From Dongia deserti (GTDB taxonomy: Bacteria > Pseudomonadota > Alphaproteobacteria > Dongiales > Dongiaceae), in NCBI RefSeq assembly GCF_003574735.1, contig NZ_QORW01000007.1, positions 62,001-126,000 on the forward strand: DNA of 64,000 bases. Direction: 5' to 3'. The notes below the pieces were generated by a model. It ran no database searches. It was not told the DNA's origin and saw nothing but the letters and a program-made list of their open reading frames with translations. The position numbers and the translations under genes were made by a program. Shown here piece by piece: positions 666-47,906 of the stretch. Numbering within the stretch: position 1 is the stretch's first letter; each line of letters starts with the position of its first letter.

Positions 666-3041
666 TTATTCCGCCGCCACCTTGGCGGATGCGCTGTGGA
701 TCGCCTGCCAGACCTTGAGCGGTGTTGCCGGCATCGAGATGTCCTCAACGCCGAGCGGCGAGAGGGCATCAAGCACCGCATTGATGACCGCCGGCGGTGA
801 GCCGATGGCGCCTACTTCGCCGACGCCTTTGGCGCCGAGCGGATTGTGCGTGCACATCGTGGATTGCGTCGCCACCTTGAAATTCGGCAAATCGTCCGCG
901 CGCGGCATGCAGTAGTCCATCAGCGAGCCCGTCAGGAGCTGGCCCGATTCCTCGTCATAGACGCAGTTCTCGAGCAGCGCTTGGCCTATGCCTTGTGCGA
1001 CGCCGCCATGGACCTGGCCCTCGACGATCATCGGGTTGATGACGCGGCCGATGTCATCGACCGCGGTGAAGTTCACGATCTGGGTGACGCCGGTGTCGGG
1101 ATCGACCTCCACCTCGCAGATGTGACAGCCGCCCGGATAGGTGAAGTTGAGCGGATCATAGAACGCCGTCTCTTCGAGGCCCGGCTCCAGCTCGGTAATC
1201 GGATAGTTGTGCGGTACATACGCAGTGAGGGCAACGGTGCCCCACGGCACGTTCTTGTCGGTGCCGGCCACGGTGAAGGTGCCGTTCTTGAACTCGACAT
1301 CCGCAACCGATGCTTCCATCAGGTGCGCCGCGATCCGCTTGGCCTTGGCGACGATCTTGTCCATTGCCTTGACCAGGGCGGAGCCGCCGACCGCCAGCGA
1401 GCGTGAGCCATAGGTGCCCATGCCGAAGGGGATCTTATTGGTGTCGCCATGCGACACTTCGACATTCTCGATGGGGATGCCGAGGGTGTCGGAGACAAGC
1501 TGAGAGAAGGTGGTCTCGTGGCCCTGTCCGTGGCTGTGCGTACCAGTGAACACGGTGACGGAGCCCGTCGGATGCACGCGGATCGAGCCGCACTCGTAGA
1601 GGCCGGCACGGGCGCCGAGGCTGCCCACTACCGCCGACGGCGCGATGCCGCAAGCCTCGATGTAGGTGGAGATGCCGATGCCGCGCAGCTTGCCGCGCTT
1701 TTTCGCGTCCGCCCTGCGGCTCTCGAAGCCCGCCCAGTCGGAGGCCTTCAGCGCCGCCTCCAGCGTGGCGAAATAGTCGCCGCTGTCGTACTGCAGGGCG
1801 ACCGGCGTCTGGTAGGGGAACGCGTCTCGCGGAATGAAGTTCTTCCGGCGGATTTCCACCCGGTCCATCTTCATCTCGCGCGCCGCTTTGTCGACCAGCC
1901 GCTCGAGCAGATAGGTCGCTTCGGGACGGCCGGCACCGCGATAGGCGTCGACCACGACGGTGTTTGTGAACACCGCTTTCACTTCGGCATAGATTGCCGG
2001 TGTGGTGTAAACGCCTGCCAACAGCGTGGCATAGAGATAGGTCGGCACACAGGGCGCAAAGGTCGAAAGGTATGCGCCCATGTTCGCGACGGTGCTGACC
2101 CTCAGCCCCAGGAACTTGCCGTCCTTGTCCATCGCCAGCTCGGCATGGGAGACGTGGTCGCGGCCTTGCGCATCGGTCAGGAAGGATTCGCCGCGCTCGG
2201 CCGTCCATTTGACCGGGCGACGCAGCTTGCCCGCGGCCCACGTCACCAAGGCCTCTTCCGCATAGTGGAAGATCTTGGACCCGAAGCCTCCGCCGACATC
2301 CGGCGCGACGACGCGCAGCTTGTGCTCCGGGATCTGCAGCACGAACGCGCCCATCAGCAGACGGATCACGTGCGGGTTCTGGCTGGTGGTGTAGAGGGTG
2401 TATTCGCCCGTGGCGCGATCGTAATCGCCAACCGCCGCGCGCGGCTCCATCGCGTTCGGCACCAGGCGCTGGTTGACGAGGTCGATCTTGGTCACGTGAT
2501 GCGCCTTGGCGAAAGCCGCGTCGGTCGCTGCCTTGTCGCCGAGGTGCCAGTCGAAGCAGGTGTTGTTCTTGGCGTCGGCCCACACCTGCGGCTTGCCGGG
2601 CTTGTCGGCATCGGCGGTCGAGATGATTGCCGGCAGCTCCTTGTAGGTGACGTCGATCTGCTCGGCGGCGTCCTTCGCCTGGGCATAGGTTTCCGCGATC
2701 ACCAGCGCGACCTGGTCACCAACATGGCGCACCCGGTCCTTGCACAGCGGCAGGTGCGGCGGCTCGATCATCGGCGAGCCGTCCTTGCTGTGGATCTGCC
2801 AGCCGGCGGGCAGCCCTCCCTTGTCATAGTCCGCGCCGGTGAAAATCGCGATGACACCCGGCGCCGACTCAGCAGCCGACGTGTCGATTTTCGCGATCTC
2901 CGCATGCGCATGCGGCGAGCGCAGAATGTAGGCATAGACCTGACCATGACGATTGATGTCGTCGGTGTAGCTCCCCTGGCCGGTCAAAAAACGGTAGTCT
3001 TCCTTGCGCTTGACGGACGCGCCGATCCCTGTGGCTGTCAT
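666..3041 (-). CDS. coxL: Molybdopterin-binding large subunit, form II CoxL-like
   Basis: Catalytic subunit of an aerobic CO dehydrogenase-family molybdenum hydroxylase, 791 aa, full length. It contains the Mo-cofactor loops GGGFGSK (near residue 250) and [13 protein letters not shown] near the C-terminus, whose Glu is the usual catalytic base. The active-site loop reads AYRGAGR at residues 366-372. This is the form II signature; true CO dehydrogenases (form I) carry AYxCSFR, with the Cys that binds copper. The protein is therefore a CODH homologue whose substrate may not be CO. The ATG at 3041 lies 4 bp after the coxS stop, so the genes are co-transcribed. Confidence 0.95.
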
Positions 3042-3045
3042 GGCA

Positions 3046-3513
3046 TCACCCCTTCATCGCAGCGGCGCCGGCCTTAACGGCCTTGACGATGTTGTGGTAG
3101 CCCGTGCAACGGCAGATGTTGCCTTCAAGGCCGTGACGGATCTCTTCCTCGCTCGGGGCTGGGTTGTTCTTCACGAGGTCGATGGCGGTCATCACCATGC
3201 CCGGCGTGCAGAAGCCGCACTGCAGGCCGTGATTGTCGCGGAAGGCTTCCTGCATCGGGTGCAGCTTTTCGCCGTTCGCCAACCCTTCGATCGTCATCAC
3301 GGAGGCCCCGTTCGCCTGTACCGCCAACATGGTGCAGGACTTCACGGCACGCCCATCGATGTGCACGACGCAGGCCCCGCACTGGCTGGTATCGCAGCCG
3401 ATGTGGGTGCCAGTCAGGCCAAGTTTTTCACGCAAGAACTGAACGAGCAGAGTGCGGCCCTCGACTTGTGCCGAAGCGCGCTTGCCATTCACCGTCATTT
3501 CCACGGTCGGCAT
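3046..3513 (-). CDS. coxS: Molybdenum hydroxylase 2Fe-2S subunit (CoxS-like)
   Basis: Small iron-sulfur subunit of 155 aa that relays electrons from the Mo centre to FAD. The N-terminal plant-ferredoxin-type cluster is bound by C40, C45, C48 and C60 (CDTSQCGAC...C). The C-terminal helical domain binds the second cluster with C99, C102, C134 and C136 (CGFC and CRCTGYH). All eight ligands are present and the length is normal for the family. First gene of the S-L-M unit; a candidate sigma70 promoter lies at 3596-3626 and a short hairpin in the leader. The upstream gene on the same strand encodes the accessory protein CoxG. Confidence 0.96.
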
Positions 3514-3560
3514 CGATTCCTCCCAGAATTCAAGCGACGGCGGGCGCCGTCGCTGGCGTT

Positions 3561-3578
3561 GGCCGGTTAGGACCGGCC
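3561..3578 (-). other. Hairpin in coxS leader
   Basis: GGCCGGT and ACCGGCC arms (7 bp, perfect) around a 4-nt loop, between coxG and coxS. No T-run follows on either strand, so it is not a standard intrinsic terminator. It would sit in the 5' leader of the coxS transcript. Confidence 0.35.
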
Positions 3579-3595
3579 TTCACTCCCAGCACAAC

Positions 3596-3626
3596 ATTCT
3601 AACGACCGCGCTCGAGCATGTGTCAA
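3596..3626 (-). promoter_or_regulatory. Candidate sigma70 promoter of coxSLM
   Basis: On the minus strand TTGACA (3626-3621) is followed after a 19-nt spacer by TAGAAT (3601-3596). The spacer is longer than ideal. It would give a leader of roughly 75 nt before coxS. The -35 is embedded in GCTTGACACATG, nearly repeated in front of coxG. Confidence 0.4.
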
Positions 3627-3699
3627 GCGCAGGCCAAGATGTGAACGTGTTTTGCGTCCGATAGCGTAGAAAGATGTCTCTCCGCAGCGGTCGCGAGCG

Positions 3700-4314
3700 T
3701 CATCGCAATGCAACGAAACCTAGGATGATGGCGATGATGACGACCAGCCCGACGATCCAAACGACAGGGGAGAGGCCACGGCTTGGGGCTTCTACGGGCT
3801 GCGCGACCGGTGGCGATGGCGGCGCTGGTTCTGCCGCAGCCGGTGCCACCTCAGCCGCCGCGGGGGCAATGGCTGCTGCCTGGACGGCGAAAGCAGCGAA
3901 GAACTCGTCCGCCAGCTTGCGCGCGGTTCCCTCCACCAGGCGCGATCCGATCTGCGCCAGCTTGCCGCCGATCTGTGCGTCTGCGGCGTAGTACAGGACG
4001 GTGGCCGCTCCCCCATCGACTGTTTCCAGCCGCACCTTGGCGCCGCCTTTGGCGAAGCCTGCCGCCCCGCCTTGGCCCTCGCCGGTGATGGTATAGCCAG
4101 CTGGCGGGTCGAGGTCGCTCAGCCTCACCTTGCCGTTGAATCCGGCCTTCACCGGCCCAATCTTGGCGATCACGCGCGCAACGAATTCGCTGTCCGAGGT
4201 CTTGTTCAGCTCCTCGCAGCCGGGAATGCACGCCCTCAGGATGTCCGGATTGTTGAGCGCTGCCCACACGGTCTCGCGCGGGGCAGGAATGCGGTACTCG
4301 CCGGTCAAATCCAT
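3700..4314 (-). CDS. coxG: CoxG-like SRPBCC protein with C-terminal membrane anchor
   Basis: CO dehydrogenase subunit G family, 204 aa. Residues 1-145 form the lipid/ligand-binding START-like fold, starting MDLTGEYRIPAPRETVWAAL. An Ala/Pro-rich linker follows (about 148-180) and a single transmembrane helix lies near the end (WIVGLVVIIAIILGFVAL). In studied systems CoxG recruits the CODH to the membrane, so the tail fits that role. The start at 4314 is chosen because a GGGAGAG ribosome site precedes it; a longer ORF begins at 4377 but its extra residues look unlike the family. Same strand as coxS, 186 bp upstream. Confidence 0.88.
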   Translation of the reverse strand: MDLTGEYRIPAPRETVWAALNNPDILRACIPGCEELNKTSDSEFVARVIAKIGPVKAGFNGKVRLSDLDPPAGYTITGEGQGGAAGFAKGGAKVRLETVDGGAATVLYYAADAQIGGKLAQIGSRLVEGTARKLADEFFAAFAVQAAAIAPAAAEVAPAAAEPAPPSPPVAQPVEAPSRGLSPVVWIVGLVVIIAIILGFVALR

Positions 4315-4357
4315 CGTGCTCTCCCAGAGTCCAGGGCAGGATGCCATCGAAGCGAAT

Positions 4358-4374
4358 CTTGACATGTTGTCAAG
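4358..4374. promoter_or_regulatory. Inverted repeat between coxG and the DUF192 gene
   Basis: CTTGAC-N5-GTCAAG with perfect 6-bp arms. Each strand reads TTGACA, so the repeat can overlap a -35 element in either direction. It lies 44 bp upstream of the coxG start and 21 bp upstream of the DUF192 start. The core GCTTGACAACATG is shared, with one base less, by the coxS promoter. Confidence 0.4.
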
Positions 4375-4394
4375 CAACGTCGGAGTTTGGCGAC

Positions 4395-39557: not shown

Positions 39558-40196
39558 ATGGATATCCACCTGCGTGCACTGGAACTGGCCTGCTCCAAGC
39601 TTTGTCATGACGTGATCAGCCCGATCGGGGCCGTCAATAACGGTCTAGAACTGCTGGAGGAGGAGGAAGACGCGGCGCTAAGGGAGGAGGCGGCCGCCCT
39701 GGCACAGCGCAGCGCCAAGCGGGCCAGCGTGCTCCTGCAGGTCTATCGCAGCGCCCTGGGGAACGCCGGCAACCAGCAGACCTTCGGGCCGCGCGAAGCC
39801 GTCGCGCTGGCTAAGGAATTCCTGCAGAACGGAAAAGCCCAATTGTCCACGGGCGAGCTGCCGGAGTCGAACTCTGTTCCCGCAGGCTATGGCAAGCTCA
39901 CCCTCAATCTCATCATCCTGGGTGCCGAGAGCCTGCCGCGCGGCGGCACGATCAACCTGCAAGTTCGTTCGCCCCAGTTGGGGAACGGGACGATCGAGCT
40001 GGACTGCATGGGCCAGCAGATCGCTTGGTCGGAAGAGTTCGGGCGCGCGATCAATCGCAATCTTCAGCCGGAAGACCTGACGGCTCACAATATCCTTCCG
40101 TATGTATCGGCGGCCTTCGCACAACGCCTGGGTATGACCCTCGCGATCACTCAGTCGGCGCCAGGAATCCTAGGGATTCTCGCTACTTCCCGGTAG
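39558..40196 (+). CDS. chpT: Histidine phosphotransferase ChpT
   Basis: 212 aa. ChpT passes phosphate from the hybrid kinase CckA to CtrA and CpdR in the alphaproteobacterial cell cycle. It has a DHp-like N-terminus with the phospho-accepting H17 (LCHDVISPIGAVNNGLELL) and a degenerate ATPase-like C-terminal domain that does not bind ATP. Length is normal. Located directly before the chemotaxis cluster and about 7.4 kb from ctrA; the two are functionally linked. Confidence 0.94.
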   Translation: MDIHLRALELACSKLCHDVISPIGAVNNGLELLEEEEDAALREEAAALAQRSAKRASVLLQVYRSALGNAGNQQTFGPREAVALAKEFLQNGKAQLSTGELPESNSVPAGYGKLTLNLIILGAESLPRGGTINLQVRSPQLGNGTIELDCMGQQIAWSEEFGRAINRNLQPEDLTAHNILPYVSAAFAQRLGMTLAITQSAPGILGILATSR

Positions 40197-40329: not shown

Positions 40330-43300
40330 ATGGATGATCTGCTGAGTGAGTTCCTGACGGAAACCTCTGAGAACCTCGCCGTTCTGGATGTCGAGCTGGT
40401 GAAGCTCGAGCAGAACCCGAACGACATGGAACTGCTCGGCAACATCTTTCGGCTGGTTCACACGGTGAAGGGCACCTGCGGTTTCCTCGGCCTGCCGCGG
40501 CTCGAATCGGTGGCGCACGCGGGCGAGAACATCCTGGGCAAGCTGCGCGACGGCGAACTGGTGGCGAGCCCGGAAGCAATCACCGCCGTGCTCGAGTGCC
40601 TCGATCGCATCCGGTCCATCATGGGTGATCTGGAAGCGAACGGCAGCGAGCCCGAGGGCGACGACTCCGCGCTGATCCAGCGCCTCAATCTCATTGCCGA
40701 AGGCGGCGCGGCGCCGGTGGCGTCGGCAGCACCGTCGGCTCCCAAATCGCAACCGAAGGCAGAAACCGTGGCAACGAAGTCAGGCAAGACACCGTCGATC
40801 TACGACCAGATCGGCGGCATGGGCACGATCGATGCGGTGGTGGAGGTCTTGTTCTCCCGCGTCATGGGCGACCTGCGCCTCAAGCACTTCTTCGAAGGCG
40901 TCAACATGGACCGGCTGCAGGGCCGCATGCGCGAGTATCTCGCAATGGTCTGCGGCGGCCCCAACGCGTTCGGCAAGGTCGACCTCAAGTGCCCGCACGC
41001 CGCCGCCGTCGGCAAGGGCATGGACGATTCGCACTTCGACGCGTTCGCCGGCCACATGCAGGCCGCGCTGAATGCGCTTGAAGTGCCCGCGCATCTGGCA
41101 GCGATGATCATGGCAATCGTCTATGCCAGCCGCGATGAAATCATGGGCCGGGCCGAAGCCGGCTCCAGTCCGACCAATGCCGCCGCGCACGCCGCTGCCG
41201 AGCCGTCTGCGGTCGAAGCCGCGGCCGCACCGGAAGCCGAGCCAGCGCCCGCTCCGAGCAAGGCTGCTGCCGCTGCCGTGATGGCGGCTGCCGCGCCGGC
41301 GAAAAGCGAAGTCTCCGAAGCGAAGGACAGCGCGGTCGCCAACCAGAGCATCCGCGTCAACGTCGAGCTGCTCGAGAACCTGATGACGATGGTGAGCGAG
41401 CTGGTGCTCACCCGCAACCAGGTGCTGCAGATCCTACGCAAGCAAAAGGACAGCGAATTCGCCGGCCCGCTGCAGCGTCTCAACCACGTTACGTCGGAGC
41501 TGCAGGAAGGCGTCATGAAGACGCGCATGCAGCCGATCGGCAATGCGTGGTCGAAGCTGCCGCGCCTGGTGCGCGATCTCAGCCACGAACTGAAGAAGAA
41601 GATCGAGCTGGTCATGATCGGCCAGGATACCGAGCTCGATCGCCAGGTCCTCGAGATGATCAAGGACCCGCTGACCCACATGGTGCGCAACTCGGCCGAC
41701 CACGGGCTGGAGGGTCCGGAAGACCGGCGCCGCGCGGGCAAGCCAGAAACTGGCAAGGTCACGCTCAACGCCTATCACGAGGGCGGCCATATCATCATCG
41801 AGATCAGCGACGACGGCCGCGGTCTCGCGATCGACAGGATCAAGGCGAAGATCCTGCAGAACGGCCTGGCCAGCGAGTCCGAGCTGGAGCAGATGAGCGA
41901 GCAGCAGATCCAGCAATATGTGTTCAAGGCCGGATTCTCGACCGCCGCGAAGGTGACCAGCGTCTCTGGCCGCGGCGTCGGCATGGACGTGGTCAAGACC
42001 AATATCGAGAAGATCGGCGGCACCGTCGAGATGCGCTCGACGGCTGGCAGGGGCACGACCTTCATCATCAAGATCCCGCTCACCCTGGCGATCGTTTCGG
42101 CCCTCATCGTCGAGTGTGCGGGCGAGCGCTTCGCGATCCCGCAGATCAGCGTGGTCGAGCTGGTTCGCGCCACCACCAACGGCGAGCTGAAGGTCGAGCG
42201 TATCAAGGACACGCCGGTGCTGCGCCTGCGTAACCGCCTGCTGCCGCTGGTGTCGCTGCGCAAGCTGCTGCGGCTCGATACCAATGAAGTGAAGTCGGAG
42301 GACGATACGTTCATCGTCGTGACCCAGGTCGGCACCTATAGCTTCGGCATCATGGTCGACCGGGTGTTCGATACCGAGGAAATCGTCGTGAAGCCGGTCG
42401 CGCCGATCCTGCGCGACATCGAGATGTTCTCCGGCAACACAATCCTGGGCGACGGCAGCGTCATTATGATCCTAGATCCAAACGGCATCGCGTCGCACTC
42501 CGGCCAGACCGGCGTTGCCGAGAACAGCGGTGCCGATACGATGGCGACCAAGTCCCGCGGCCACAGCGACGAAAAAGTTCCACTGCTCCTGTTCCGCGCC
42601 GGCGGCGGCGCGCCGAAGGCGGTTCCGCTGGCCCTGGTGGCACGCCTCGAGGAGATCGAGCGCAAGTCGATCGAGACCTCCAACGGGCGCTGGGTCGTGC
42701 AGTATCGCGGCCAGCTGATGCCACTGATCCACATGGATCCGAGCCAGGAGATGGCGGCCGAAGGCCAGCGCCAGCCGGTGCTGGTGTTCCAGGACGATGA
42801 GCACTCGATGGGCCTGATGGTCGATCAGATCGTCGACATCGTCGAAGCGCGGCTCAATGTCGAGCTCGGCGCCGAACTGCCCGGCCGCATCGGCAGCGCA
42901 GTGGTGGCCGGCCAGGCGACCGAGATCATCGACACCGGCTACTATCTGCGTCAGGCCTACGCCGACTGGTTCGGCTCGCACGACCGCGACCAAACCGGCA
43001 AGTTGCACAAGCGCCTGCTGCTGGTGGACGACAGCGCCTTCTTCCGCAACCTGCTGGCCCCGCAGCTTTCCGCCGCCGGCTTCGAGGTGACGGCAGTCGA
43101 CAGCCCGGATCGCGCCCTGATGCTGTGCGAAGCGGGCGAAGAGTTCGACATCATCGTCAGCGACATCGAGATGCCCGGCATGTCCGGCTTCGAGTTCTGC
43201 GAGATGGTGAAGCGCAGCGGCCGGTGGCACAACGTCCCGATCGTCGCTCTGTCCTCTCATGCCTCGCCGCACAACCTCGAGAAGGGCCGCTCGGTCGGGT

Positions 43301-43386
43301 TCGACGATTACGTCGCCAAGTATGACCGCGACGGCCTGGTCCACACGCTCAATTCCACCCTGTCCGAGATGAGGGGCGCAGCATGA
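40330..43386 (+). CDS. cheA: Hybrid chemotaxis kinase CheA with an internal truncated haemoglobin domain
   Basis: 1018 aa from ATG 40330 (MDDLLSEFLT); the ORF to 40264 is not family-like. Order: Hpt P1 (about 1-105, phospho-His H44 in LVHTVKGTCGF); linker; group I truncated haemoglobin (156-277, SIYDQIGG start, FF of CD1 at 187-188, proximal H223 in KCPHAAAVG); Ala/Pro linker (279-335); P3 dimerisation (341-400); HATPase (N-box near N454, DDGRG, GRGVGMDVV); CheW-like P5 (588-720); second CheW-like domain (750-880); receiver (895-1015, D945 and K997). The globin stands where the CheY/CheB-docking P2 would be. Overlaps cheW by ATGA. Confidence 0.96.
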   Translation: MDDLLSEFLTETSENLAVLDVELVKLEQNPNDMELLGNIFRLVHTVKGTCGFLGLPRLESVAHAGENILGKLRDGELVASPEAITAVLECLDRIRSIMGDLEANGSEPEGDDSALIQRLNLIAEGGAAPVASAAPSAPKSQPKAETVATKSGKTPSIYDQIGGMGTIDAVVEVLFSRVMGDLRLKHFFEGVNMDRLQGRMREYLAMVCGGPNAFGKVDLKCPHAAAVGKGMDDSHFDAFAGHMQAALNALEVPAHLAAMIMAIVYASRDEIMGRAEAGSSPTNAAAHAAAEPSAVEAAAAPEAEPAPAPSKAAAAAVMAAAAPAKSEVSEAKDSAVANQSIRVNVELLENLMTMVSELVLTRNQVLQILRKQKDSEFAGPLQRLNHVTSELQEGVMKTRMQPIGNAWSKLPRLVRDLSHELKKKIELVMIGQDTELDRQVLEMIKDPLTHMVRNSADHGLEGPEDRRRAGKPETGKVTLNAYHEGGHIIIEISDDGRGLAIDRIKAKILQNGLASESELEQMSEQQIQQYVFKAGFSTAAKVTSVSGRGVGMDVVKTNIEKIGGTVEMRSTAGRGTTFIIKIPLTLAIVSALIVECAGERFAIPQISVVELVRATTNGELKVERIKDTPVLRLRNRLLPLVSLRKLLRLDTNEVKSEDDTFIVVTQVGTYSFGIMVDRVFDTEEIVVKPVAPILRDIEMFSGNTILGDGSVIMILDPNGIASHSGQTGVAENSGADTMATKSRGHSDEKVPLLLFRAGGGAPKAVPLALVARLEEIERKSIETSNGRWVVQYRGQLMPLIHMDPSQEMAAEGQRQPVLVFQDDEHSMGLMVDQIVDIVEARLNVELGAELPGRIGSAVVAGQATEIIDTGYYLRQAYADWFGSHDRDQTGKLHKRLLLVDDSAFFRNLLAPQLSAAGFEVTAVDSPDRALMLCEAGEEFDIIVSDIEMPGMSGFEFCEMVKRSGRWHNVPIVALSSHASPHNLEKGRSVGFDDYVAKYDRDGLVHTLNSTLSEMRGAA

Positions 43387-43874
43387 GTTCAACCACCACC
43401 TTGACCGAGGGCGCCACGACCATCGGGTCCGAGGACCATCGCGACTACGTGACGATGTCGATCGGGTCGCAGATGTTCGGCATCCCGGTGCTCAACGTTC
43501 AGGACGTGCTGGGCTCGCAGCAGATCACGCGCGTGCCGCTGGCGCCGCCGGAGGTCGCAGGCTCACTCAACCTGCGCGGTCGGATCGTGACCGCCATTGA
43601 CGTGCGGCTGCGCCTCGGCATGCCAAAGAAGGAAGACGGCAAGCCGCCGATGTCGGTGGTGGTCGAATACGAAGGCGAGCTTTACAGCCTGCTGGTCGAT
43701 TCGGTGGGCGAGGTGCTCAGTCTCAACATGAAGGATTATCAGCGCAATCCGCCGACCTTGAACGCGCGCCTGCGCGAGTTCTCGGACGGCATTTACCGCC
43801 TCAACGGCGCATTGCTGGTCGTGTTGTCGGTCGGCTCGCTGCTGAATTTCGGTGGCCACAAGGACGTTGCATAG
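43383..43874 (+). CDS. cheW: Chemotaxis adapter CheW
   Basis: 163 aa coupling protein between CheA and receptors. One CheW domain with MSIGSQMFGIPVLNVQDVLG and GSLNLRGRIVTAIDVRLRLG. It starts inside the cheA stop codon (ATGA), so translation is coupled. No receptor gene is present in the cluster, so it must join receptors encoded elsewhere or contribute only to the CheA complex. Confidence 0.94.
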   Translation: MSSTTTLTEGATTIGSEDHRDYVTMSIGSQMFGIPVLNVQDVLGSQQITRVPLAPPEVAGSLNLRGRIVTAIDVRLRLGMPKKEDGKPPMSVVVEYEGELYSLLVDSVGEVLSLNMKDYQRNPPTLNARLREFSDGIYRLNGALLVVLSVGSLLNFGGHKDVA

Positions 43875-43904
43875 CACGGCCGGGGATATGTACGGAGCAG
43901 AACG

Positions 43905-44270
43905 ATGAAGAGCTGTCTTGTCGTCGACGATTCGAAGGTCGTTCGAATGGTCGCGCGTAAGATCCTCGAAGGTCTCAACTTCGAGATCGAGGAAGCCGAA
44001 GATGGTCGCAAGGCCATGGATGTGTGCCTCAGGCGCATGCCGGACGCCATCCTGCTCGACTGGAATATGCCGGTGATGAGCGGCATCGACTTCCTGCGCG
44101 AGCTGCGCAAGGCGGAAGGCGGGCAGACTCCGATCGTGGTGTTCTGCACGACCGAGAATGACATCGCCCACATCCAGGAAGCGATCGGCGCGGGCGCCAA
44201 CGAATACATCATGAAGCCGTTCGATAGCGAAATCATCGAATCCAAGTTCACCCAGGTCGGCCTGATCTGA
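43905..44270 (+). CDS. cheY: Single-domain response regulator CheY
   Basis: 121 aa receiver with D8, D9, phospho-acceptor D52 (LLDWNMPVMSG), T in the FCTTEN loop and the conserved Lys in MKPFDSE. Output of the CheA kinase; when phosphorylated it binds the flagellar switch. Begins 30 bp after cheW; AGCAGAACG is a modest ribosome site. Confidence 0.94.
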   Translation: MKSCLVVDDSKVVRMVARKILEGLNFEIEEAEDGRKAMDVCLRRMPDAILLDWNMPVMSGIDFLRELRKAEGGQTPIVVFCTTENDIAHIQEAIGAGANEYIMKPFDSEIIESKFTQVGLI

Positions 44271-44320
44271 CCGAGTGCGGCTGGGACAGGGCACGAAGTG
44301 CGTATTGCCGGGAGACAGGC

Positions 44321-45460
44321 GTGAGGGAGATTGGCGTACCAAGGACTGCGACGACCGGACCGGCGCCCATTCGCGTTTTGGTCGTGGATGACTCCCATGT
44401 CATTCGCGGTCTGGTGTCGCGGTCGCTCGACAGCGATCCCGGGATCAAGGTTGTCGCCACTGCCGCGAACGGCAAGATGGCAATCGACGAAGTCACCCGC
44501 AACGACATCGAAGTCGTGGTACTCGACATCGAGATGCCGGTGATGGACGGTATGACGGCGCTGCCGCAACTGCTGGCGGCGCGGCCAGGCATGCAGGTCA
44601 TCATGGCCTCCACCCTGACGCTCAAGGGTGCCTCCATCAGCATGAAGGCGCTGTCCAAGGGCGCCGCAGACTACGTGCCGAAGCCGAGCTCGACCGGCGA
44701 AATACATTCTGCCGAGGATTTCAAGCGCGAGCTCATCTCCAAGGTGAAGAGCTGGGGCGCGGTGGCGCGCCGGCGGCGCGGCTCTGCAGCTCGCCAAGGC
44801 ACGGACGCACCGAGCGCGCCGGCGGCGCGGCGTTTCCCGGTGGGTCCGATCAAGCTGCGCGAGGTGCCGACCTTGTTCCGGCCGGACTGCATCGCGATCG
44901 GCTCTTCGACCGGCGGGCCGCAGGCCTTGTTCAAGGTCTTCCAGATGATGGGCAAGGTGACGAACCTGCCGGTTTTCGTGACGCAGCACATGCCGGCCAC
45001 CTTCACCACGATTCTGGCCGAGCATCTTGGCCAGGCAAGCGGCATGCCTGCCGCTGAGGCGAAGGACAGCGAGCCGGTGATGCCCGGCCGCATCTATGTC
45101 GCACCCGGCGATTTCCACATGACGGTTCACGCCGAAGGCGGCCGCAAGGTGCTGCGGCTCGACAAGAACCCGCCGGAGAACTTCTGCCGGCCGGCGGTGG
45201 ATCCGATGCTGCGTTCGCTCGCGAAGGCGTACAACGGCAAAGTGCTGGCGGTGATCCTGACCGGCATGGGCCAAGACGGATTGAAAGGCGGCCAGGAACT
45301 CGCGGCGGCCGGCGGCGTCATCGCCGCTCAGGATGAAGCGACCAGTGTGGTGTGGGGCATGCCGGGTTCCGTCGCTAGCAGCGGCCTGTGCAGCGCCGTG
45401 CTGCCGCTTTCCGATATCGGGCCTTATGTCCGCAAGGCCATTTCGAGGATGGCTGCATGA
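44321..45460 (+). CDS. cheB: Protein-glutamate methylesterase CheB
   Basis: 379 aa, N-terminal receiver (D69 in VVLDIEMPVMDG) and C-terminal esterase that removes methyl groups from receptors. Catalytic triad: S196 (GSSTGGPQ), H223 (TQHMPA) and the Asp in GMGQDG. It starts with GTG at 44321, GGGAG upstream. The presence of CheB and CheR implies methylated receptors somewhere in the genome. Stop overlaps cheR start by ATGA. Confidence 0.94.
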   Translation: MREIGVPRTATTGPAPIRVLVVDDSHVIRGLVSRSLDSDPGIKVVATAANGKMAIDEVTRNDIEVVVLDIEMPVMDGMTALPQLLAARPGMQVIMASTLTLKGASISMKALSKGAADYVPKPSSTGEIHSAEDFKRELISKVKSWGAVARRRRGSAARQGTDAPSAPAARRFPVGPIKLREVPTLFRPDCIAIGSSTGGPQALFKVFQMMGKVTNLPVFVTQHMPATFTTILAEHLGQASGMPAAEAKDSEPVMPGRIYVAPGDFHMTVHAEGGRKVLRLDKNPPENFCRPAVDPMLRSLAKAYNGKVLAVILTGMGQDGLKGGQELAAAGGVIAAQDEATSVVWGMPGSVASSGLCSAVLPLSDIGPYVRKAISRMAA

Positions 45461-46338
45461 CCGTGACCGATTTTGAATTCATCTGCCAGATCCTCCGGGA
45501 ACGCTCCGGGCTGGTCCTTACAAACGACAAGGCTTACCTGCTCGAAAGCCGGCTGCTGCCGGTCGCGCGCAAGTGGAAGCTGCCGACGTTCGACGATCTG
45601 GTGCGCGTCATCCGGACCAAGATGGACGAGGCGGTGATCCGTGACGTGGTCGAGGCGATGACCACGAACGAGTCCTTCTTCTTCCGCGACACCAAGCCGT
45701 TCGATCAGTTCAAGCAGCTGGTGCTGCCGGCTCTCATGAAGAGTCGCGCCGCCAGCCGCACCATCCGGATCTGGAGCGCCGCCTGCTCGAGCGGTCAGGA
45801 GCCCTATTCGCTGGCCATGATCCTCTCGGAAATGGCAGCGCAGATGAACGGCTGGAAGATCGAGATCGTCGGCACCGACCTGTCGACTGAGATCCTGGCG
45901 CGCGCCAAGGAAGGCCTGTACTCGCAGTTCGAGGTGCAACGCGGCCTGCCCATCACCATGCTGGTGAAGTATTTCGCCCAGATCGGCGACCGCTGGCAGA
46001 TCAATGCCAAGCTGCGCAGCATGGTACAGTATCGCGAGTTCAACCTGCTGCACGATCCGATGCAGCTCGGCCGGTTCGACGTGGTGTTCTGCCGCAACGT
46101 GCTCATCTATTTCGACCAGCCGACCAAGACGCGCGTGCTCAACAGTGTCGCCAAGGTCATGCCGGAGGACGGGTTCCTCTTCCTCGGCGGCGCGGAGACC
46201 GTGCTCGGCATCACCGACAAGTTCCAGATGGTGCCGGGCCAGCGCGGCGTCTATGGCGTTGCCTCCGCCGCCGCCAGCGGCGCGCGCCAGCCGATGCCGA
46301 GCTTCCCGATCGCAGCCGCCGCCGGCGCGCCTCGGTAA
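45457..46338 (+). CDS. cheR: Chemotaxis methyltransferase CheR
   Basis: 293 aa. N-terminal helical domain (FEFICQILRERSGLVL), then a SAM methyltransferase domain with IWSAACSSGQEPYSLAM and VGTDLSTEILARAK, and the FDVVFCRNVLIYF strand. Methylates receptor glutamates. I start at ATG 45457, within the cheB stop; the ORF to 45388 is only an extension. It ends the five-gene unit and is followed by the hairpin at 46360. Confidence 0.95.
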   Translation: MTVTDFEFICQILRERSGLVLTNDKAYLLESRLLPVARKWKLPTFDDLVRVIRTKMDEAVIRDVVEAMTTNESFFFRDTKPFDQFKQLVLPALMKSRAASRTIRIWSAACSSGQEPYSLAMILSEMAAQMNGWKIEIVGTDLSTEILARAKEGLYSQFEVQRGLPITMLVKYFAQIGDRWQINAKLRSMVQYREFNLLHDPMQLGRFDVVFCRNVLIYFDQPTKTRVLNSVAKVMPEDGFLFLGGAETVLGITDKFQMVPGQRGVYGVASAAASGARQPMPSFPIAAAAGAPR

Positions 46339-46885: not shown

Positions 46886-47611
46886 CTAAGCGCTGGCGCC
46901 TTCGACCTTCTTGGCGCCGTTGCCGGTTCGGGCCTCTTCGGGATCCCGCAGCACGTAGCCGCGGCCCCAGACCGTCTCGATGTAGTTCTCGCCGCCGGTA
47001 GCATTGCTGAGCTTCTTGCGAAGCTTGCAGACGAACACATCGATGATCTTCAGCTCCGGCTCGTCCATCCCACCATAGAGGTGGTTGAGGAACATCTCCT
47101 TGGTCAGGGTCGTGCCCTTGCGCAGGGAGAGGAGCTCGAGGATTCCGTATTCCTTTCCGGTCAGATGCAGCGGCTGGTTCTCCACCTCGACGGTGCGCGT
47201 GTCGAGGTTAACCGTCAGCTTGCCGGTCTTGATCACCGATTCCGAATGGCCCTTGGAGCGACGCACGATCGCCTGGATGCGCGCCAGCAGCTCGCGCCGG
47301 TCGAAGGGCTTCGTCAGGTAATCGTCGGCGCCGAAGCCGAGACCTTTGATCTTATTGTCCAGCTCCGATAGACCGGACAAGATCAGGATTGGCGTATTGA
47401 CACGCGAGGAGCGCAGGCGGCGCAACACCTCGTACCCGTCGATATCCGGCAGCATCAAATCCAGGATGATGATGTCGTAATCGTAAAGCTTGCCGATCTC
47501 GAGCCCGTCTTCGCCGAGGTCGGTCGTGTCAACAATGTAGCCCTCAGACTTGAGGATCAGTTCGATGCTCTGAGCGGTGTTGGCATCGTCTTCAACTAGC
47601 AACACTCGCAT
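46886..47611 (-). CDS. ctrA: Cell-cycle transcriptional regulator CtrA
   Basis: 241 aa OmpR-type response regulator, master regulator of the alphaproteobacterial cell cycle and motility. Receiver MRVLLVEDD with phospho-acceptor D51 (LDLMLPD) and DNA-binding winged helix with [17 protein letters not shown] and [14 protein letters not shown] 47611 gives the standard N-terminus; the ORF to 47692 is an extension. The C-terminus ends KVEGASA. Divergent from fliI across a 295-bp region with several TTAA elements. Phosphate comes from CckA through ChpT, encoded at 39.6 kb. Confidence 0.97.
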
Positions 47612-47906
47612 GGCCCCAAACTCCCAGCGATAGCTCACGACGACATTAATACAGATAAATGTTAACCATTTATCCCCAGGAAAGTAAAGCAATGATCGCA
47701 GAAAGCCGCAGATTTCCGTGGGTGGCGCACCAATTATCCACAGCCCGCCAGTTCGGTCTACATCTCATTTTCGGTAGTTAACTCATTGATAACTCTCCGG
47801 GAATTTGTAGCACGCCTGAGCTTAACTTTAACCGCTGGTTAATCACGTTTGGCTAGAGTCGCAGGCGAGGGTCACACTTACTGGGGCAACTTGGGCAATT
47901 TGGGGC
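47612..47906. other. ctrA/fliI divergent regulatory region
   Basis: 295 bp, clearly AT-richer than the genes around it, with TTAA half-sites near 47645, 47661, 47778 and 47822 besides the full box. No gene. Likely holds the ctrA promoters and the fliI promoter. Confidence 0.7.
47828..47842. promoter_or_regulatory. CtrA box upstream of fliI
   Basis: TTAA-CCGCTGG-TTAA, a perfect match to the CtrA consensus TTAA-N7-TTAA. It lies 64 bp before the fliI start and 216 bp before the ctrA start, suiting both activation of fliI-fliJ and autoregulation. Confidence 0.7.

Follow-up and report, generated by a model that had tools for sequence, protein, structure and literature searches.

The only CheA histidine kinase encoded in the genome of Dongia deserti contains a group 1 truncated haemoglobin (trHb) domain, which occupies residues 156–277 between the Hpt domain (P1) and the dimerisation domain (P3), at the P2 position. 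The domain was examined in a window of 64,000 nucleotides, the whole stretch of DNA that was analysed, and in related genomes. Its fold and position are retained across the family Dongiaceae, its haem ligand was lost repeatedly on the trees made, and its sequence is under purifying selection. As a globin kept in CheA across one family and found in further families of the class, it is a candidate for direct input into the kinase. Ligand-bearing and ligand-less forms occur in closely related CheA proteins encoded in one type of gene cluster, so that the conversion of a haem sensor into a haem-free regulator could be tested in matched proteins.

The globin domain of CheA

The cheA gene is located at positions 40330–43386 on the forward strand of the window, starts with ATG and encodes a protein of 1018 amino acids (P0001). 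A profile search of the genome gave a single match to H-kinase_dim, and hence one CheA, together with 18 matches above cut-off to the MCP signalling domain. The protein was identified as a CheA from the order of its Pfam domains, which is Hpt, Bac_globin, H-kinase_dim, HATPase_c, CheW and Response_reg, all coordinates below being on the forward strand unless stated. The Hpt domain spans residues 3–96 (40336–40617; PF01627, E 2.2e-16) and is followed by a variable linker between Pfam domains, residues 97–155 (40618–40794), of which residues 113–154 are fast-changing. The trHb domain (40795–41160; PF01152) leads into an Ala/Pro-rich linker of residues 278–337 (41161–41340), residues 271–331 again being fast-changing. 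These are followed by P3 (residues 338–398, 41341–41523; PF02895, E 1.5e-15), the ATPase domain P4 (residues 446–585, 41665–42084; PF02518, HATPase_c, E 4.5e-18), the CheW-like domain P5 (PF01584, matched in two stretches of which residues 591–723, 42100–42498, are the best) and a C-terminal receiver (residues 897–1005, 43018–43344; PF00072, Response_reg, E 3.9e-19 for the whole protein). The Pfam order agrees with an earlier note on this DNA, which placed a globin at the P2 site with flexible linkers on both sides. No match to a P2 or CheY-binding family was obtained for this CheA in Pfam at E ≤ 0.01.

The gene lies in a cluster ordered chpT-cheA-cheW-cheY-cheB-cheR. A ChpT-type histidine phosphotransferase, a conserved neighbour, is encoded upstream of cheA (39558–40196; PF10090, E 5.9e-18), and cheW, cheY, cheB and cheR were assigned using Pfam at 43383–46338, in an order shared by the Dongiaceae loci. 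A response regulator with Response_reg and Trans_reg_C domains is encoded on the opposite strand (46886–47692, reverse); the name CtrA-type was given by eye and also rests on the like position of the gene in the annotated Azospirillum cluster. Flagellar genes, among them fliI, lie downstream of the che cluster and were assigned by eye from their reading frames. Elsewhere in the window, a molybdenum hydroxylase-like large subunit with an AYRGAGR motif, a small subunit and a CoxG-like gene were recognised by eye (666–4377, reverse); the large subunit is one that we take to be of the form II CO dehydrogenase-like type.

Residues 156–267 matched the Pfam family Bac_globin with a score of 54.4 bits (E 1.8e-14, cut-off 21), and when PF01152 was searched against the whole genome the CheA domain was the sole match (59.1 bits, E 2.2e-15). 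The closest sequence relatives in the PDB are group 1 trHbs, headed by HbN of Mycobacterium tuberculosis (1idr) at E 1.8e-19. An AlphaFold2 model of the domain, built from 12 sequences, had a pLDDT of 85 and a pTM of 0.78, and superposed on HbN with Z scores of 16.7–17.0, the match to 5ab8 having a Z score of 17.0 and an rmsd of 2.0 over 117 aligned residues, giving a 2-on-2 globin fold. The best structural matches included 2gl3, a variant of HbN in which Tyr B10 is replaced by Phe and Gln E11 by Val; HbN variants with such distal changes reportedly carry haem. The Protoglobin family gave no match for this CheA at E ≤ 0.01, and one CheA relative (L102) passed the cut-off of that family, scoring 27.8 bits where 25 are required. 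The earlier note had described a complete group I trHb in the same place; its coordinates (40795–41160) are exact, and the profile match, the group assignment and the predicted fold, with a Z score of about 17 against HbN, all upheld its description. The word complete holds for the fold and fails for the distal pocket, which differs from that of HbN at F175 and M200.

The haem pocket was compared with HbN by alignment, using the conventional names of helix positions. The domain is related in sequence to HbN and shares its fold, CD1 Phe (F188, 40891–40893), E7 Leu (L196) and F8 His, so that both pocket residues named in the earlier note, CD1 Phe and the proximal His, are confirmed. The candidate proximal ligand is H223 (40996–40998), which lies on the predicted helix F of the AlphaFold2 model, is preceded directly by a proline, and is retained in all four genomes of the genus of the window. 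Unlike HbN, the domain is part of a kinase, and the distal Tyr B10/Gln E11 pair is absent from the alignment: B10 is F175 (40852–40854), where HbN and 20 of the 22 free or otherwise fused relatives examined have Tyr, and E11 is M200 (Gln in HbN), within the segment from Q197 (E8) to R201 (E12) at 40918–40932. This pair is typical of HbN-like members without strictly defining them.

Distribution of globin-bearing CheA proteins

The Hpt-globin-kinase architecture that the earlier note had read from a single gene recurs in other genomes. NCBI taxonomy assigns Dongia to the Dongiaceae, and a globin match was found in 16 of the 17 genomes of this family, in 15 of them within one CheA frame; the named relatives contributed 12 loci, including that of Dongia mobilis CGMCC 1.7660. 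G004 is the only one of the 17 without a globin match. The cheA of one Dongia genome among the 16 (locus L029 of G015) is split over three open frames, either by a real break or by an assembly error. Among 385 genomes sampled evenly from the alphaproteobacterial class, at least 72 matched the globin profile when no more than 11 first-look candidates were scored per genome, and 135 contained a CheA of this type at E ≤ 1e-90. Twenty loci outside the Dongiaceae were fetched: the 19 matched loci with frames of at least 440 aa, and one more whose frame has 350 aa. A 402-aa frame in G391 was not among them. BLAST of the CheA parts identified 15 of these 20, from 14 genomes, as Hpt-globin-CheA, and with five Dongiaceae of the sample the architecture is present in at least 19 of the 385 genomes. 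Pfam agreed for all six proteins scanned (L098, L100, L102, L105, L111 and L114), the globin of L111 being barely over threshold (21.1 bits, cut-off 21). Reading of the linkers gave two further CheA proteins with a degenerate globin (L162 and L174). The recurrence of the fusion across many separate genomes rules out chance or mis-assembly.

Several candidates were set aside. Of the long frames encoding something other than CheA, that of L109 belongs to a receptor (MCP), that of L117 to a globin-PAS protein and that of L115 to a free globin. In L101 and L216 a free globin is probably extended by a spurious frame upstream, L101 having no other Pfam domain, and L112 did not match a globin at 1e-5.

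The search was extended to a phylum sample of 398 genomes, using E ≤ 1e-8 and scoring at most 10 candidates per genome. Two more CheA-globin fusions were obtained within the class (L217 and L219), both without F8 His. No CheA-globin was found outside the class among the two long non-class frames examined (616 and 913 aa), in which BLAST detected none of the CheA parts; all other listed non-class globin matches fell in frames no longer than 316 aa. Many of the small genomes outside the class under family code f188 have two adjacent free trHb genes that score well on the globin profile.

Of the 96 CheA-core rows, in which long frames and Dongiaceae are overrepresented, 63 had no detected globin, which indicates that this type of kinase has no need of it. 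The linkers were surveyed in 102 CheA rows, chosen for long frames, with Dongiaceae included and six duplicates. Those of at least 170 aa hold a globin in all but three rows (L142, L175 and L178), while those of 155 aa or less contained no globin at E below 1e-4. The three exceptions have linkers of 188–273 aa in which no globin was detected and another domain may sit. The like-placed CheA of Azospirillum lipoferum has a 132-aa linker without a globin.

The presence of the globin requires 7 changes on a tree of the CheA cores, the least number forced by starred (well-supported) branches being 1; this tree came from a quick search and has 7 long end branches and two flagged long-branch joins. 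A tree of 59 globin rows, with poor deep support and an unsettled bootstrap, gave 5 changes, the least forced again being 1. A single capture of the globin by CheA and several captures both fit the two trees.

Haem ligand and selection

Pocket residues were compared between 36 CheA-borne domains at the P2 position (16 from Dongiaceae and 20 others) and 22 relatives that are free-standing or fused in other ways, the latter being those fetched as loci and hence a subset of the free matches in the class sample. L076 was dropped as a duplicate piece, as were identical copies of a domain and any match shorter than 85 residues or with E above 1e-4. Of the 36 CheA-borne domains, 17 have F8 His (7/16 in Dongiaceae, 10/20 elsewhere), compared with all 22 relatives; Fisher's test gives p = 1e-5 for this difference, which is not a true probability as the rows are related. 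The same trend was observed for CD1 Phe (27/36 versus 22/22), B10 Tyr (11/36 versus 20/22) and E11 Gln (8/36 versus 19/22). Two other positions behave in the opposite manner, Gln at E8 being found in 28/36 CheA-borne domains and none of the 22 relatives, and Arg at E12 in 25/36 versus 4/22. Both are kept with and without F8 His.

On a CheA-core tree of the 33 globin-bearing rows, the state of F8 His requires 7 changes, at least 4 of which are forced by starred branches. This tree alone fits loss or gain of the histidine, and loss is the direction that we infer. The domains of the Dongia genus with code g6 have a deletion of seven alignment columns around helix F, the histidine being absent from all seven rows, and in genus code g4 the F8 position is Lys. 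The model of the Dongia mobilis domain has no helix F, retains the rest of the globin fold and still matches HbN. The full HbN-like pocket (B10 Tyr, CD1 Phe, E7 Leu, E11 Gln and F8 His) is found in CheA at five loci, L098, L099, L102, L110 and L116. L110 and L111 belong to one genome (G241, listed with 10% contamination) that has two CheA proteins, one with a full-pocket globin and one with a degenerate globin lacking the histidine.

Selection was assessed in ten chosen species pairs by a simple Nei-Gojobori count, in which some dS values are near or above 1. The dN/dS of the globin was 0.03–0.25 in the 10 pairs, including those without the histidine (0.03–0.18 within Dongia and 0.24 in g4). 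The globin dN was lower than that of the C-terminal linker in 10/10 pairs and of the N-terminal linker in 9/10, and higher than that of Hpt, P3 and P4 in 10/10. These low ratios in pairs with and without the histidine show that the globin is under purifying selection even where the ligand is missing, more loosely than the kinase core. The explanation by which a former sensor is drifting out of CheA and is kept only because the linker tolerates it is very improbable: the repeated ligand loss, the long branches and the very degenerate copies in L162 and L174 would suit it, but dN/dS is 0.25 or less in 10/10 pairs, dN is low relative to the linkers, and the domain is retained in 16 of 17 Dongiaceae genomes.

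Possible roles of the domain

Repeated loss of the ligand from a fold that remains under selection suggests that the conserved job of the domain is probably protein contact. In the reading that we prefer, and consider evenly poised between right and wrong, the domain is a globin-derived accessory of CheA with a conserved role in contact, for which haem is optional and from which the ligand was lost repeatedly. An alphaproteobacterial CheA would have acquired a group 1 trHb in the linker between P1 and P3, presumably as a haem-binding domain, since the free relatives and some CheA lineages look so; the haem ligand would later have been lost several times while selection held the fold. The result would be an accessory module for input or docking, placed next to the Hpt domain that is phosphorylated. 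It probably acts at present by positioning Hpt relative to the kinase, or by docking CheY, CheB or the receiver, and may affect kinase activity. E8 Gln, E12 Arg and a Leu-Glu-Val motif may indicate its contact face, although the E8/E12 signature could come from shared ancestry instead of contact as the rows are related. In the present species haem may bind and modulate the contact, as the proximal His and CD1 Phe remain; lacking the distal Tyr/Gln pair, the domain would hold O2 weakly.

Retention of the histidine in all four genomes of the genus argues against a pure contact role, and it is one of the observations consistent with a working haem sensor in this species. Here H223 would ligate haem, and O2, NO, CO or redox state would alter the domain and with it the access of Hpt to the kinase, so that CheA would take in a signal with no receptor involved. 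We regard this as possible, if somewhat doubtful. F8 His, CD1 Phe and the predicted helix F are kept, 2gl3 with its similar distal change is among the best structural matches, five other loci have HbN-like pockets in CheA, and the domain is the sole Bac_globin match of the genome. Against this, the distal Tyr and Gln are absent, a proline precedes H223, and other Dongiaceae genera have lost the ligand or helix F yet kept the domain. The gas-sensor reading of the earlier note thus stands as far as CD1 Phe and F8 His are concerned, and is weakened by the distal pocket and by the lack of the histidine in 19 of the 36 CheA-borne domains. As the genome has 18 MCP matches above cut-off for this one CheA, the kinase does not replace receptors in general. 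Judged from pocket residues, gas sensing is possible in this species and more plausible in the full-pocket relatives, a direct gas-sensing kinase being likeliest at the five loci with the whole HbN pocket. A broader reading, which we hold only tentatively and think unlikely, is that of an alphaproteobacterial class of globin-coupled CheA proteins, in which full-pocket lineages would sense gas and bypass receptors, others would be haem-free regulators, and two would have a second, haem-competent globin in P5.

It is improbable that the domain simply substitutes for P2, docking CheY or CheB as P2 of E. coli does and unrelated to gas. It resembles P2 in its position between Hpt and the dimerisation domain and in its flexible linkers, it has CheA-specific residues, and this CheA has no P2 or CheY-binding match in Pfam; its modelled fold, a globin, differs from that of P2. 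According to a survey of CheA domains, P2 is missing from over half of CheA proteins (PMC10782961). However, 60 of the 63 globin-less CheA rows have linkers of only 64–155 aa, in a comparison of lengths that did not include a scan for P2, which argues that a large domain is not generally needed here.

Globins with and without haem are known from other signalling proteins. The globin of RsbR stressosome sensors carries haem in Vibrio but not in Bacillus (PMC4976288), and ethanol is bound by the globin domain of HemAT independently of its haem (PMC7542364); these are precedents for both halves of the preferred mechanism, haem-linked and haem-free. RsbR resembles the CheA globins as one signalling family with haem-binding and non-haem members, but here the globin is a trHb in CheA, and both kinds are met in different genera of a single family, the Dongiaceae. 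HemAT and other globin-coupled chemoreceptors likewise tie a globin module to chemotaxis signalling. The HemAT-type sensors are described with an N-terminal 3/3 globin in the receptor (PMC13401364, PMC1457004), and Corallococcus Cc_4972 as a Bac_globin fusion to an MCP, also in the receptor (PMC6194562). Unlike HemAT, the present trHb is internal to CheA, and is neither N-terminal nor in a receptor. The earlier note knew of no globin inside the kinase, and among the matches listed in our literature searches, which covered titles and abstract openings, no preprints and few subscription papers, none reported such a fusion. The words globin, hemoglobin and heme do not occur in the main text of the CheA domain survey (PMC10782961), which describes CheA as without a sensor domain and dependent on receptors.

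Globins were also observed elsewhere in the chemotaxis proteins of the class. Locus L109 (4464–7328) encodes a 955-aa receptor with an N-terminal trHb of the same type, a PAS domain and an MCP signalling domain, and L117, a globin-PAS protein resembling it, is cut by a contig end. Two CheA proteins have a second globin inside the CheW-like P5 domain, at residues 707–830 of L100 and 655–776 of L105. The two proteins have different family codes, and their P5 globins are inserted in the same loop, between RLLPLxSL and FIVVxQVG; the globin tree does not group them. Both P5 globins carry the HbN pocket residues, and the copies at the P2 position of the same proteins are less HbN-like. P5 couples CheA to CheW and the receptors, which makes a globin in this domain a plausible site of direct control.
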